Assembly: GCA_002105175.1 (NCBI GenBank)
Contig: MCGE01000015.1
Coordinates: forward strand, 124,001-188,000
Reading direction: 5' to 3'
DNA from: Absidia repens
Taxonomy: Eukaryota > Mucoromycota > Mucoromycetes > Mucorales > Cunninghamellaceae
Length of the DNA: 64,000 bases
The notes under the pieces were generated by a model, which made no database searches, was not told the origin of the DNA, and worked only from the letters and a program-made list of their open reading frames with translations. A program made the position numbers and the translations under genes. Position 1 is the stretch's first letter, and every line of letters starts with the position of its first letter. This document shows, one piece after another, positions 14,425 through 20,404 of the stretch.

Positions 14425-14857
14425 CTATTGTTTTCGTTGATGGTACGCCGGTCTATGGTTGTGATCCTTTACTAAACGTCCTACATCATGCTTACCACCA
14501 CAACACAGCCTAACATTTTCCAATGCTTCGTCATCGTCATCGTCATCGTCGTGGTCGTGATGGTGATGATGATGATGATGTTGCTGTTGAAGTTGCTGAT
14601 TGTCTTGACTATGAGATGACGTTGATACAGTTCGGTGGTAGACATCATTAATACGTTGAATGCTTGGTTTGCGTAAAATTGAGGCTGATATCGATCGCTG
14701 CGGTAAAATTGATGGTGTGGGTTCGAAAGTCGATTGTCCAGTACGTGTCAATAGGTACGTCAAGGACTATTATAAGTTTTTTTATAAAGAAAAAAAAAAA
14801 AAAAAAACGGTGTGAGATACAAAAGACATACGATTTCCCTTCTCTCACTTTTTTCTT

Positions 14858-14914
<57 letters not shown>

Positions 14915-17900
14915 TCAAACCATAAGTCATGTCTTTCCTTAGTAGGAGCCTTGATCTTGAGTTGTCGAGTGGCAGTTTGAATCAACAAACAAGGGACACC
15001 GCTACCTTCAGGGGAATCACTATCAGGTCGGCCCACCATAACATTTTCCACAAACGCACTTTTTGCTTTCAATTCACCGCCATCAGCACCAGGAGCCCGG
15101 GTACACCAATACAATGTGCGCGTGTAAGGATGGATCCAGAAGTACCGTTCATGTCGACGTTCAGAAAATCCTTGACCCATGGGCTTGCGTGTATATTTAA
15201 CCAACCAATCCCCAATCATAGTCTGCGTAATGGATGATATCGTTGGATCTGCTGTTTTCGGAAGAGCACGAACCATGGTGGAATGTTCATCGTGAATAGA
15301 AGATGTGATCGAAGGTGCTGTCATGCCTGCTGATGATGCTGATGAAGACGCGCCATGATTCACGGTGTTGGAGGGATGGTAGGTCGCTTGGTTGCTTTCC
15401 GTGGCCATACTTGATACACTGAGAGATACTTGCCGCTTCAGTCCAGATGATGATGAGCTATCGTCTAAATAATCGGTTGTTGCCGTTGATGCAGCCATGA
15501 TACCACTGCCGTTCCTAGTCGCCTTGTCAAGTAAAGAGGAAGGAGGGCGTTGTGTAGGTCGAGCAGGAAGGGCTTTGTTGCGATCGTCACTGTCATTTCG
15601 ACTTTTGTCCACAGTTGCTAATAAAGAAGTCGTATTGTTGATGGTGTGTTGATCATGCTGCACGGTATTTGCGTCCACTACTGCTTTCGATACTGTGGCA
15701 TCGGATTCCTTTTGACTTTGAGTACTTGCCAAGTTCAAAGATCGATCAAGTGTGTTTGGACCGCTATCATTGAGACTACCTAACCAAGCATTGCTGTTGT
15801 CAGAGGAGATGCCAGTGCTACCATTTTCTTGTCTTGTGTAAGCATCCTTAGTAGAGTGTGCCATTGTTACCCGTTCTCCCCGCAAACCGCAGTCAGAAAG
15901 TTCACCAACCGGGGTATCTACCTGGATCGCCATATCGGTACCAACACCACCCACGTCAACAGTCATCGGAGCCTCGGCTGATTCTACCGTTGTGTTTTCG
16001 TATTGTGTTGATACGTCCTTGGTAGTAGTGACAGGTTCGTGCTGAGTGGCGCTATCCGAAGTTGGAATGACAGTATCATGCTGAGTGTGTTGATCAACCG
16101 CTGAATATTCATGTTGCACTGCGGAATCCATCGTCGTATATTCGTGTTGCACCGCCGAGTCAATGGTTGTGTATTCATGTTGCACGCTGGCATCTACAGG
16201 TATGTAATCATGCTGAGCCGCTGAATCAACCATTGTATATTCATGCTGCACGCTGGCATCCATTGCTGAGATCGGATCGACTTGTGTTGCTGCTTCCACG
16301 CCATCGTTAGTAGGGATATCATCACACTGAGTACCTTGGTCGACCGTAGCCACGTTAGCTTGTTCGATCGCTAATTCTTCCTTGGTTTTCGCTATAGCTG
16401 CCAATACCGCCGTAGAGAGTGCTGCTGCCGATTTTGCTTCCACATCACTTCTTGCCGCCGCCACCGCTGCTTCCGTTGTTGACTTGGCATCATCTGCTGC
16501 TTCCTGTTTCGCTTTTGCTGTTGCCTCGGCCACCGCTGCTGCTAAAGATGCTGCTGCTTTCGCTTCAATTTGCTTTGTCGCTACGTCAACTGCTTCATTC
16601 ATGGCTAATGTCGCTTTCGCTTCGGCATCGGCTACTGCATGTATTGATTGGGCATCCGCGTCGTTTTTCGTTTGAGCTACCGCCGCTGCTACTGCTGTTG
16701 CTACTGCTGCCGCTGCTTTGACATCGGATTCGTTTTTGGCCGCTTCCACTGCTGCTGCGAGTGCTGTTGCTGCTTTGGCGTTGGCTTCATCTAATGCTTT
16801 TGTTGATGCGGCATCGGCCATGGTTGTTGCTTCGGCTACGGCTGCTTCGATCGCTATGGTTGCTTTTGCTTCGGCTTCGACCTTTGCTGCTTCCACTGCT
16901 GCTGCGAGAGTTGCTGCTGCTTTGACGTCTGATTCTTCTGCTGCTTTTGTTGATTCCGCGTGAGCTTCTGCCTTTGCCTTTGCTGTTGCTTCGGCCACAG
17001 CTGCTTCGATTGCCGCTGATGCTTTGGTTTCGGCTTCGACCTTTGCTGCTTCCACTGCTGCTGCGAGAGTTGCTGCTGCTTTGACGTCTGATTCTTCTGC
17101 TGCTTTTGCTGATTCCGCGTGAGCTTCTGCCTTTGCCTTTGCTGTTGCTTCAGCCACAACTGCTTCGATTGCTGCTGATGCTTTGGTTTCGGCTTCGACC
17201 TTTGCTGCTTCCACTGCTGCTGCGAGATTTGCTGCTGCTTTGACGTCTGATTCTTCTGCTGCTTTTGTTGATTCCGCGTGAGCTTCTGCCTTTGCCTTTG
17301 CTGTTGCTTCGGCCACGGCTGCTTCGATTGCTGCTGATGTTTGGGTTTCGGCTTCGCTTCTTGCTGCTTCTACGGCTGCTGTGAGAGCTGCTGACGCTTT
17401 GTTTTCGGCTTCGCTTCTTGCTGCTTCCACGGCTGCTGTAAGAATTGCTGCTGCTTTGACGTCTGATTCTTCTGCTGCTTTCGTCGACTTTGCGAGAGCT
17501 TCCTCCTTTGCCTTTGCTGTCGCTTCGGCCACGGCTGCTTCGGTTGCTGCTGATGCTTTGGTTTCGGCTTCGACCTTTGCTGCTTCCACTGCCGCTGCGA
17601 GATTTGCTGCTGCTTTGGAATTAGCTTCATCTGCTGCTTTCGTTGATTCCGCATGAGCTTCTGCCATAGTTTTAGCTGTTGCTTCGGCCACGGCTGCTTC
17701 GATTGCTGCTGATGCTTTAATTTCGGCTTCGACCTTTGCTGCTTCCACTGCTGCTGCGAGATTTGCTGCTGCTTTGGAGTTAGCTTCATCTGCTGCTTTC
17801 GATGATTCCGCATGAGCTTCTGCTACAGTTTTCGCTGTTGCTTCGGCCACGGCTGCTTCGATCGCTTTGGCTGCGTTTGCTTCGGCTTCGGTCTTTGCTG

Positions 17901-20404
17901 CAATCACTGCTGCTTCAGTCGCTTCTGCTTCCGCTTTTGTTGATTCCGCATGAGCTTTTGCTGTTGCTGCTGCCACTGCCGCCGAGAGAGCGATTGCTGC
18001 TGCTGCTTTGGCTTCATTTGCTGCTTTTGCTGATTTCGCTTCCGCTTCCTCGGTTGCTTCTTGCTTCGCCTTTGCGATCGCCAGGGCTTCGGCTGCTTCA
18101 TCACGAGGTTCGATCAAGTCACATTGACATTCTTGATGCACAGACGCAGGTGCAGATGATTGTAATGCCGCCGCATCCAATGGAGAGGTCGCATCATTCG
18201 TTTGAGTAGGTGTTTCAGATAATACTACAGGTGCCTGATCCATGCAAGGTTGTTGCGTCACCATAGTCCATTGCTTCGCCTTATCCAAAGATGCCTGATG
18301 CCATTGTTCCAATTGATGTAATTTCGCCAATTGCTGTTCATAATGGTGTCGGTCATGGATGATAAGGATGTCGTCGGTCATAACGCCCATTTCCATTGAG
18401 GTATTGTTCAGCTTGGCATTGCTTTGAGATAATTCAAGAGAGAGAGAAGTAAATCCCGCAGGAGGTGGTGTATTCGTCCCTTCATGAACATCGTCATTGT
18501 CATCGGATACAGAGGAGTAGGAGTAGGCATCATCATCATCGTCGTCGTCGTCATCCAAACTATCGTTGTCACCATCACCGCCTTGACGTTTTGATCCAGA
18601 TCTTGATGAAGACAACGGAGGCGTACTGGTACCGCCACCCATACCATTGCTGTTGCCGGCCCCACCAGCACCGCCACCCCGGTGTAATTTCCTTGTTGCA
18701 CGTCGATGTTGCTTGACCTTGCGTTTTTTGGGATCATCGAGTACGCCGCCACTAGAGCCACCTTGGTGAGAAGAGGAGCGGGGAGCATCCACCCATAGCT
18801 GAGGATCATTTTGCAACTGTTCGATCGTTTCTTGAGATTCCGCCAGCAGTTTCTTGAATTCAAATTTTTCGGTTTTTTCCTTGTGTAAATGAGACCGAAG
18901 GTTCGACACCATACGATGAGCGTGGGCAAGAGATGTTTTCAGTGTTTCGACTTCCATGGCTTGAACTGCGCGCCCACCCCCGGCCACAGGTTGTTGTTTG
19001 GGAGATGAAGGAGGAGAGTTAGAAGAGGAGCCACCACTACGGTATTGAGGATGAACAGAATCTTGCATCACAGAAGGATCAGAGGGGTCAGAATCATCAG
19101 AAGAGAGTTGGCCAGCAGTGTTGTTGGAGCCCGGTGCAGCAGATTGATGCTTTCCAAGTCGAGATTGAGCCTTCGCAATAGCAAGTTCAGACGTCAAGGT
19201 GTCAATGTGTTTGGTATGCTGTTGAGCTTCCCGTTGTAATCCAGCACAATGGCGACGTAGACTTGTCATATCTTGTTCATGACGCTGTTTCGAAGTTTCC
19301 AATAGTGCTGTCAATTTTTCTTCCCGGTCACGTAACTGTTCGATATCGCTCCGAAGATCATTCGTTTGCTTGGCCAATTTGGTTTGTTCACTGGTGGCTT
19401 TATGAAGATGTTGCTGGAGTTCGGTCACGCTGAGTGTCAATTCTTGCTTTGTCAATTCCAGGTTCCAGGTTTCTTCCTTGAGTTTTTCTATTGAAACACA
19501 AACCATTAGTCAGCTGATGATCTTCCATTATCTTTTGATGTTTTACCTTCATTTTCTTCACGCTGGCGAAGTTGTTTGGCCATTGCTTCAGCAGAGCGTT
19601 CCAAATCGGCCTTTTGAATTTCCAAAGCACGCAACTGTTCTTCCTTTTCTTGTAAGATGGCTTGCATTTTTCTGACTTCGATCAATAGACCTTGACCAAT
19701 TTCAGTAGCAAATTCGATATCCGTGTTGCGACGGTCATTGTTGGGGATTTTAGATCGACGTTTTGTGGGAGTGGATCCAGAAGGAGGAGGAGGTAGTGGC
19801 AACAGAGAAGAGGGGACAGCATTTGGCATCAAAGTGGAGGTTGAAGGGCTAGGTAAGATATCCAGACCCCTTTGAGGTAGCAACTATAGAGTTCAAATAG
19901 GAGTGAATCAAGGAGACACCCAGCAAAGAGGAGAGAATGATGTTAGTGAGATACAATCACGCCCTGTTTGACTTGATATATTACCTTGTCCTTGCGTTGT
20001 TGACCTCTATAGGTTGCTAAATCACGTTCCAAGTGACGAATCTTGTCCACAGTTGCAGGCGGTAAACCATCGTCCTGTCTGTCCTGTTGTTGAAGTTGGA
20101 TTTGTTGTTCAAGTTCACCAAGTTTATCACGTAATTGACTGATCTGCCGGGTCAACACATTCTTTTGGATTCCACTTCCACAATCCTGACACTGCTGTTC
20201 TCTTTCCATGAGCTGCTGTTCAAAATCCAGTTTCAATTGTCGAAGCTGTTCTTGCGTCAAGGTTGAAGATCGGGAAGACGAAGGTGTTGGCAGCATTGGA
20301 GTGGTGGAAGGACGAGTAAAAGGAGATTGATGAAGGGGAGTGGACCGTGTCGGTTGAGGTGTTTGCTGTTGTTGTTGTTGTTGTTGTTGTTGAGAATTCA
20401 TCAT
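14425..20404 (-). CDS. NUM1: NUM1/ApsA/Mcp5-like cortical anchor: coiled coils, Ala-rich repeats, C-terminal PH domain
   Basis: Probable cell-cortex protein that anchors dynein and/or mitochondria for nuclear migration. Four exons (20404-19985, 19883-19547, 19487-14914, 14766-14425) give 1890 residues. Order: poly-Gln N-terminus; coiled coil (RQISQLRDKLGELEQQ, VRKMQAILQEKEEQLRALE and on); Ser/Gly/Asp-rich linker; about 580 residues of Ala/Glu/Lys repeats with a 53-residue period; a tract of QHEY-type motifs; then the PH domain TQTMIGDWLVKYTRK, FSERRHERYFWIHPYTRTL, KAPTKERHDLWFE, which is the Num1/Mcp5 type that binds PI(4,5)P2. The last exon adds a His/Asp-rich tail. Placement as NUM1 rests mainly on the PH domain; the repeats are unlike the 64-residue repeat of yeast Num1. 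The final intron starts with an AAT microsatellite. Confidence 0.88.
14862..14912. repeat. (TTA)17 microsatellite at a splice donor
   Basis: Fifty-one bases of TTA repeat. On the minus (coding) strand this is (TAA)n starting with the donor itself: the exon ends in GAG and the intron runs GTAATAATAATAA. Confidence 0.9.
16360..18105 (-). repeat. Coding minisatellite, 159-bp unit (53 residues), inside the NUM1-like gene
   Basis: Tandem Ala/Glu/Lys-rich units. The word GACGTCTGATTCTTCTGCTG recurs at about 16923, 17082 and 17241 (159-bp steps) and again near 17457; a TTAGCTTCATCTGCTGC variant recurs at about 17623 and 17782, also 159 bp apart. The protein unit runs KAAEESDVKAAATLAAAV then EAAKVEAETKASAAIEAAV then AEATAKAKAEAHAEST. 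Central units are nearly identical and outer ones degenerate. The composition predicts a long helix or coiled coil. Confidence 0.9.

Follow-up and report, generated by a model that had tools for sequence, protein, structure and literature searches.

LC8-like motif arrays in NUM1/ApsA/Mcp5-type proteins of Absidia repens and other Mucoromycota

LC8 is a subunit of dynein, the motor that proteins of the NUM1 type anchor (PMC7373426). Its binding sites lie in disordered segments and are described by a Gln at the centre, Thr, Val or Ile at -1, Thr or Val at +1, Asp or a polar residue at -4 and Asp, Glu or Pro at +2 (PMC6607443, PMC3078936). The anchor residue is mostly Gln, and Asn, Met, Ser and Gly also occur (PMC12057147). 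Val at -5, found by phage selection, raises the affinity (0.07 µM for VDKSTQTD, 0.56 µM for GDKSTQTD), but this preference is said not to be generally used by known natural sites (PMC3078936). LC8 is described as taking two copies of one client and not bridging different clients (PMC12057147), although a few cases of bridging are listed (Bim/Bmf, 53BP1 and LCA5; PMC12017986). With LC8 (Dyn2), Nup159 forms a rigid row of stacked dimers (PMC5963919, PMC12017986), and the shortest linker studied in ASCIZ has 3 residues (PMC10046861). Here we describe an array of LC8-like motifs in the product of a NUM1/ApsA/Mcp5-type gene of Absidia repens. The gene lies on the minus strand of a 64,000-nucleotide stretch of contig MCGE01000015.1 (positions 124,001 to 188,000), called the window below, to which all coordinates refer.

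The gene, BCR42DRAFT_59446, encodes in four exons a protein of 1890 amino acids (P0002); the translated window contains its exon pieces unchanged. Judged from its sequence, the product is a cortical anchor of the NUM1/ApsA/Mcp5 type with an N-terminal coiled-coil part, a disordered middle and a C-terminal PH domain. Its elements are, in order, a conserved box (EFATEIGQGLLIEVRKMQ), coiled-coil-like stretches, an acidic stretch, three motifs, an Ala-rich stretch, twelve motifs and the Mcp5-type PH domain. The NUM1-like identity, proposed earlier in a sequence-only reading of the window, is borne out by the match of the whole protein to Mcp5_PH (PF12814; 5.4e-34, 117.5 bits, cut-off 25) and by the N-terminal box that it has in common with ApsA. 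This box, EFATxIxxxLLxxVRxxQ, is present in the window protein and in Aspergillus nidulans ApsA (P0277) and occurs in a similar form in 124 of 240 relatives; the N-terminal coiled-coil region was judged by it rather than by a coiled-coil predictor. As a member of this family, the protein would anchor dynein in A. repens.

The same reading had noted about fifteen TQT/IQVD-like motifs, and all 15 were recovered exactly, on the minus strand from 15649 to 18396. Three precede the Ala-rich stretch: site 1, MEMGVMTDD (18370..18396), which is Met-centred and would correspond to the conserved founding site discussed below, site 2, SETPTQTND (18193..18219), and site 3, VHQECQCDL (18115..18141). They are followed by VDQGTQCDD (site 4, 16318..16344), VEAATQVDP (site 5, 16273..16299), MDASVQHEY (site 6, 16237..16263), VDSAAQHDY (site 7, 16204..16230), VDASVQHEY (site 8, 16171..16197), IDSAVQHEY (site 9, 16138..16164), MDSAVQHEY (site 10, 16105..16131), VDQHTQHDT (site 11, 16072..16098), SDSATQHEP (site 12, 16033..16059), KDVSTQYEN (site 13, 15994..16020) and TDMAIQVDT (site 14, 15913..15939). 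Site 15, DANTVQHDQ (15649..15675), is isolated and has no Asp or Glu at -4. An additional TQT copy, SEAETQTSA, lies inside the Ala-rich stretch (17332-17358) and was absent from the earlier list. The central residue is Gln in 14 sites and Met in one, position -1 is Thr, Val or Ile in 13 of the 15 (the exceptions being Cys in site 3 and Ala in site 7), -4 is Asp or Glu in 13 and +2 is Asp or Glu in 14. At +1, His (8 sites) predominates over Thr, Val and Cys (2 each) and Tyr (1). Sites 4 to 13 follow each other at intervals of 11 to 15 residues.

The pattern [DE]xx[TVI]Q[THSYCFVIM][DE], hereafter the full motif, occurs 10 times in P0002; 5000 shuffles of the whole protein average 0.15 copies and never exceed 3. 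Within the array segment alone the 10 copies compare with 0.08 (maximum 2) after shuffling. More than one copy was found in only three open reading frames, all NUM1-like, and a single copy in one further frame, among 179 frames (33,563 amino acids) drawn from the window and six paralogous loci, NUM1-like frames included. The array is predicted to be disordered and the PH domain to be folded: in a model built on 22 sequences the predicted local distance difference test score is 29-42 in ten-residue blocks of the array and 68-88 for most of the PH domain, and the array falls on the disordered side of a charge-hydropathy analysis.

Two PH domains served as seeds for collecting relatives, that of P0002 (the best 120 of 322 homologs) and that of a paralog on C6 (the best 120 of 246). 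Both lists are biased toward the PH domains of their seeds, and all counts in relatives rest on them. Proteins were grouped by source name or, failing that, by their place in the lists into 46 (later 50) Mucoromycota, 74 others (mostly basidiomycetes, with some ascomycetes) and 116 ascomycete-type relatives, whose names were not checked singly. Near-copies were removed only in a reduced set, which keeps 33 of the 50 Mucoromycota proteins. Over the 46 Mucoromycota sequences, 334 full motifs were counted against 6.0 expected by shuffling, with 0 to 18 copies per protein (at least 5 in 29 proteins, none in 5). Altered patterns stay much closer to expectation: 9 against 4.8 for the reversed motif, 9 against 5.8 and 14 against 5.8 when Gln is moved to -1 or +1, and 13 against 11.2 when it is replaced by Glu or Lys. 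The pattern with Asn for Gln is itself elevated (21 against 3.9). Together, the shuffles and the altered patterns rule out chance or composition as the source of the motifs.

Positions that played no part in the selection of the sites also have the LC8-like residues. In the reduced set, -4 is Asp or Glu in 217 of 269 sites (39.8 expected) and -5 is Val or Ile in 95 of 217 (20.4 expected). Spacing, measured with a pattern somewhat looser than the full motif, shows a lower limit: none of 279 neighbouring pairs of the reduced set is closer than 11 residues, 16 are at 11 and 64 at 12, the mode; in the full 46 proteins 2 of 425 pairs fall below 11. By our own sum, the 3-residue linker of ASCIZ and an 8-residue motif also give 11. 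Sites with Thr at +1 in the 46 proteins are centred on Gln (88), Asn (20) or Met (13) in 121 of 125 cases and on another residue in 4. An alignment of the array from five relatives (10 sites) gives the highest mean column identity for the central Gln (1.0), followed by -2 (0.85), -4 (0.79), -1 (0.76), +1 (0.67), +2 (0.55), -3 (0.53) and -5 (0.41), while the linkers reach 0.36. Absidia cylindrospora and Halteromyces carry the repeats at an identical 11-residue spacing. Recent slippage alone was rejected as an origin of the array, since the order and spacing of the sites are common to relatives. Non-conservation among relatives had been named beforehand as evidence against an LC8 platform; the motifs are conserved in those examined.

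Outside the Mucoromycota, the 74 others contain 145 full motifs against 6.3 expected (none in 22 of the 74), mostly widely spaced, with one neighbouring pair at 12 residues and none nearer. This count is less clean because the control patterns are elevated as well (reversed 36 against 5.5; Glu or Lys for Gln 106 against 16.4). The 116 ascomycete-type relatives show a modest excess of the Gln pattern (59 against 10.1). These proteins (P0246-P0361) contain 123 units of the form [STVIA]Q[TVAIHSMF][TS][ED]P (3.3 expected), none of them in ApsA P0277; the units may be a degenerate relative or a further form of the array. Met-centred copies, [TVIA]MT[DE], occur in P0011 of Hesseltinella (7 against 0.15 in shuffles), where the final five are 41 residues apart, and in P0008 of Gongronella (4 against 0.05).

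Site 1 has a wider distribution. The form [VI]Dxx[VI]MT[DE] is found in 64 of the 116 ascomycete-type relatives, as VDSGVMTE 35 times and as VDSGVMTD 17 times, and the looser [VIMCT][DE]xx[VI][MN]T[DE] in 29 of the 50 Mucoromycota (VDAQVNTD, VDAEVNTD, MEMGVMTD and similar). Chance expectation for the looser form is 0.4 proteins among the 116 and 0.05 among the 50. ApsA has VDSGVMTD together with three EQGT[SN]TD copies. A basidiomycete counterpart reads VEFGVQTD or AEFGCQTE, and 48 of the 74 others contain a match to a wider form of the site pattern (1.6 expected). Motif and rough place, without an alignment, thus suggest that site 1 would be shared by ascomycetes, ApsA included, Mucorales and basidiomycetes, and MEMGVMTDD of the window protein would be this old shared site.

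The sequences show the motifs with their conservation, register and spacing, together with disorder predicted for the array and a gene for LC8 in the A. repens genome. LC8 binding, duplexing and a mechanical role are what we infer from these. The explanation that we favour, to which we give about an even chance, is an LC8-type array that duplexes NUM1 chains. Two parallel chains would be paired first by their coiled coil, as is known for the family. One motif after another from each chain would then dock, in register, in the paired grooves of LC8 dimers, as in Nup159 and ASCIZ. With 3 to 5 residues between 8-residue motifs the LC8 dimers could stack closely, and the stretch would become a zipped, stiff duplex resembling LC8-bound Nup159. 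Such a duplex would stabilise the dimer and hold the head that binds dynein at a distance from the PH domain that binds the membrane. The Mucorales arrays would be an expansion of the old site 1, with its Met, Asn or Gln centre and Thr at +1, whose +1 residue drifted to His, Ser, Tyr and Cys. Single Mucorales sites are probably weak and reliant on avidity; the His copies are best read as weak or diverged. A fuller history is more tentative, with rather less than an even chance of being right. It holds that an old single site, VDxGV[M/Q]TD, made NUM1/ApsA/Mcp5 proteins LC8 clients and that Mucorales built from it the longest known arrays, exceeding the 11 sites of human ASCIZ. In these arrays Val at -5 would be used and His, Ser, Tyr or Cys at +1 tolerated, and LC8 would zip the anchor into a rod between membrane and motor.

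Several observations weigh against LC8 as the partner. Both Thr of TQT are described as fully buried and constrained in LC8 (PMC5963919), and His at +1 falls outside the published consensus (PMC3078936). Among the 15 window sites 4 have Thr or Val at +1, as do 2 of the 10 that match the full motif; for the [TVI]Qx[DE] sites of the 46 Mucoromycota proteins the figure is 130 of 474. In these 474 sites +1 is Thr (122), Ser (106), Cys (63), Tyr (54), His (49), Arg (13), Phe (12), Val (8), Ile (8), Met (7) or another residue (32). Some relatives do have Thr or Val in most sites (11 of 15 in P0036, 6 of 7 in P0016), and the preferred residue differs by lineage: Absidia favours His, Zychaea and the C6-type P0242 favour Ser, P0013 favours Tyr, and Mycotypha and Rhizopus microsporus favour Thr. 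The codons of His, Tyr, Cys, Ser and Phe are linked by single base changes, and so are those of Asn, Asp, Pro and Leu. Since the latter four are rare at +1 although a single base change away, the position looks selected, but not in the manner known for LC8. Position -3 is most often Ala (90 of 474) and Lys or Arg in only 11, while LC8 sites prefer a large or basic residue there, as a preference rather than a strict rule (PMC6607443). The published non-binders LDTSIQTE, VDRSIQTV and EAKSIQTS (PMC6607443), which were assayed as single peptides, resemble motifs of the relatives such as VDASIQTE of P0016. Weak LC8 motifs are reportedly aided by multivalency (PMC6607443), which serves here as an argument and not as a test. 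Ala (69) and Glu (44) also stand at the centre of the Thr-at-+1 pattern among the 116 ascomycete-type relatives, as does Glu (41) among the 74 others; neither residue has been reported as an LC8 anchor. Tandem duplication accounts for part of the spacing regularity.

A crude scoring matrix was derived from 20 binders, namely 18 of the 19 strong table peptides (a tagged duplicate being left out) together with gephyrin and Bmf; 4 weak binders were omitted. One of the 15 window sites passes (VDQGTQCD), and so do 8 of 31 published non-binders. These 31 were taken from the 43 of two tables, leaving out BSN-shift, CRYBG1, one DAZL peptide, the Asp-tagged SCRN2, MUC5B-1, CUL3, SAV1, MSTL1, DMRTA2, OTOG, ZNF469 and ILK. 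The omitted CUL3 peptide (LTLQHHMG) has His at +1, but its -1 and +2 are poor as well. VQHE and the other His copies score poorly, in agreement with the sequence-only reading, which had called them atypical for LC8.

The restricted choice at +1 leads to a different proposal, namely that the array docks a partner other than LC8 through an LC8-like motif accepting several +1 residues. The prevalence of Thr, Ser, Cys, Tyr and His, the rarity of Leu, Pro, Asn, Ala, Lys and Glu and the invariant Gln of the aligned array would suit such a partner. We know of none, however; the same proteins carry Thr-at-+1 sites with the Asn and Met centres that LC8 accepts, and the spacing floor suits LC8. We regard this proposal as rather unlikely. 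It is unlikely, too, that only the canonical sites (site 1, MEMGVMTDD, site 4, VDQGTQCDD, and perhaps sites 5 and 14) bind LC8, the VQHE copies being a tandem expansion without binding. A 33-base tandem repeat at 16105-16185 and the low VQHE scores favour such a loss, whereas the 11-residue spacing kept in A. cylindrospora and Halteromyces shows that the repeats are not recent slippage, and the Gln is identical across the five aligned relatives.

The sequence-only reading had proposed a multivalent LC8 platform, and that interpretation is partly supported. The LC8-like residues at -4, -5 and +2, the spacing floor of 11, the disorder and the founding site sustain an LC8 array; the gathering of dynein, i.e. 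its direct recruitment through dynein-borne LC8, is judged less likely because LC8 is described as taking the same client twice, bridging being confined to the few listed cases. Moreover, dynein's LC8 is taken up by the intermediate chain. Direct recruitment would agree with LC8 being a dynein subunit in a family that anchors dynein, with those bridging cases and with fission yeast Mcp5, which fails, probably in its interaction with dynein, when the repeat unit after the coiled coil is missing (PMC1885245). The Mcp5 result makes clear that repeats in one member of the family are important, without indicating their partner. On balance we think direct recruitment very unlikely. A repeated disordered spacer without any partner, kept by repeat dynamics, could account for the predicted disorder, the tandem units and a copy number varying from 0 to 18 full motifs. 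It is hard to reconcile with conservation that peaks at the motif positions rather than in the linkers and with a single site 1 common to ascomycetes and Mucorales, and we hold it to be highly improbable.

The genome of A. repens contains one LC8 gene found with PF01221 (L017), whose product is 80% identical to human LC8, as well as matches to the dynein heavy chain. At LC8 residue 65, Phe replaces Tyr in 4 of the 5 Mucorales sequences compared, that of Absidia included, and the flanking residues are invariant in the alignment. A co-evolution of the LC8 pocket with the unusual +1 residues was considered and rejected for want of a clean link: Zychaea LC8 keeps the human Tyr65 though the NUM1-like sites of Zychaea are mostly VQSE, a combination that also counts against the LC8 reading. 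The dynein intermediate chain was meant as an internal control for LC8 sites; PF11540 gave no match here nor in 14 control genomes, an uninformative result.

Exon 1 of the gene (19985..20404, minus strand like the other parts of the gene) was placed by matching its P0002 piece in the window translation. Exon 2 (19547..19883, last base read from the DNA) holds the conserved box in the N-terminal coiled-coil part. This box resembles the CC1 box of dynein adaptors, through which they bind the light intermediate chain. A literature search for a link between a CC1 box and Num1 gave one NuMA review. Exon 3 (14914..19487) includes coiled-coil sequence, the acidic stretch, all 15 motifs, the Ala-rich stretch and most of the PH domain; the open frame at 14845-19509 likewise contains all 15 motifs. 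The exon 3 portion of the Mcp5_PH domain spans 14914..15240 (PF12814, 5.7e-32 on the exon 3 frame, the last matched residues falling beyond the splice site). Exon 4 (14425..14766) encodes the end of the PH domain and the tail, with the stop codon within it. A (TTA)17 microsatellite (14862-14912), TAA on the coding strand, follows immediately on the 5' splice site of the intron interrupting the PH domain; read unspliced, it would give a run of Ile.

The Ala-rich stretch (16375..18096), between sites 3 and 4, comprises about 575 residues, of which 246 are Ala, and is built of 159-base (53-residue) DNA repeats; tandem units extend over 16825-17914, with 92% matches in the best block. A check of its periodicity gave no clear heptad signal. 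A six-frame search located seven Mcp5_PH loci in the 47.4 Mb genome. On C18, the close paralog L011 carries the motifs but no Ala-rich stretch. The C6 paralog (L016, G000:C6:41500-51400) has a longer motif row, with nine GVQS[DE] units 12 residues apart and several xQT sites. It represents a third paralog type, and the array of A. cylindrospora P0242 is similar, with eight GVQS[DE].

If the favoured reading is true, LC8 would act in cortical force generation through the anchor, apart from its place inside dynein. The arrays would also provide a natural series, long and systematically varied at +1, for the study of LC8 motif reading and of the rescue of weak sites by avidity. The single Met-centred site of Aspergillus ApsA makes the idea testable in a standard laboratory fungus. 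A literature search, for which subscription journals were largely out of reach, found no title or abstract linking LC8 to Num1, ApsA or Mcp5, and the passages on these proteins in PMC7373426, PMC1885245, PMC10511499 and PMC8824474 contain no such link. Long LC8 arrays are known; to our knowledge, such arrays across a family of cortical dynein anchors, with a drifting +1, are not.

Among described systems, the window protein belongs with the NUM1/ApsA/Mcp5 cortical dynein anchors by its Mcp5_PH domain and N-terminal box, its long array and Ala-rich stretch being expansions relative to them. In architecture, Nup159 motif letters being outside the comparison, it resembles Nup159, which has a disordered stretch with 5 LC8 sites beside a coiled coil (PMC5963919, PMC12017986). 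However, Nup159 is a nuclear pore protein, while the NUM1-like arrays reach 18 full motifs in a relative, their +1 drifts and their binding is putative. ASCIZ/ATMIN is likewise multivalent, with 7 sites in Drosophila and 11 in human, and has a TMT-centred site like NUM1 site 1 (PMC5963919, PMC10046861), but it is an animal transcription factor that regulates LC8 and has a wide range of linkers and mostly TQT sites. Gephyrin (EDKGVQCE) and myosin Va (DDKNTMTD) share their centre and +1 residues with window site 4 (VDQGTQCDD) and site 1 (MEMGVMTDD), respectively; unlike the NUM1-like array, these are single sites in unrelated proteins.

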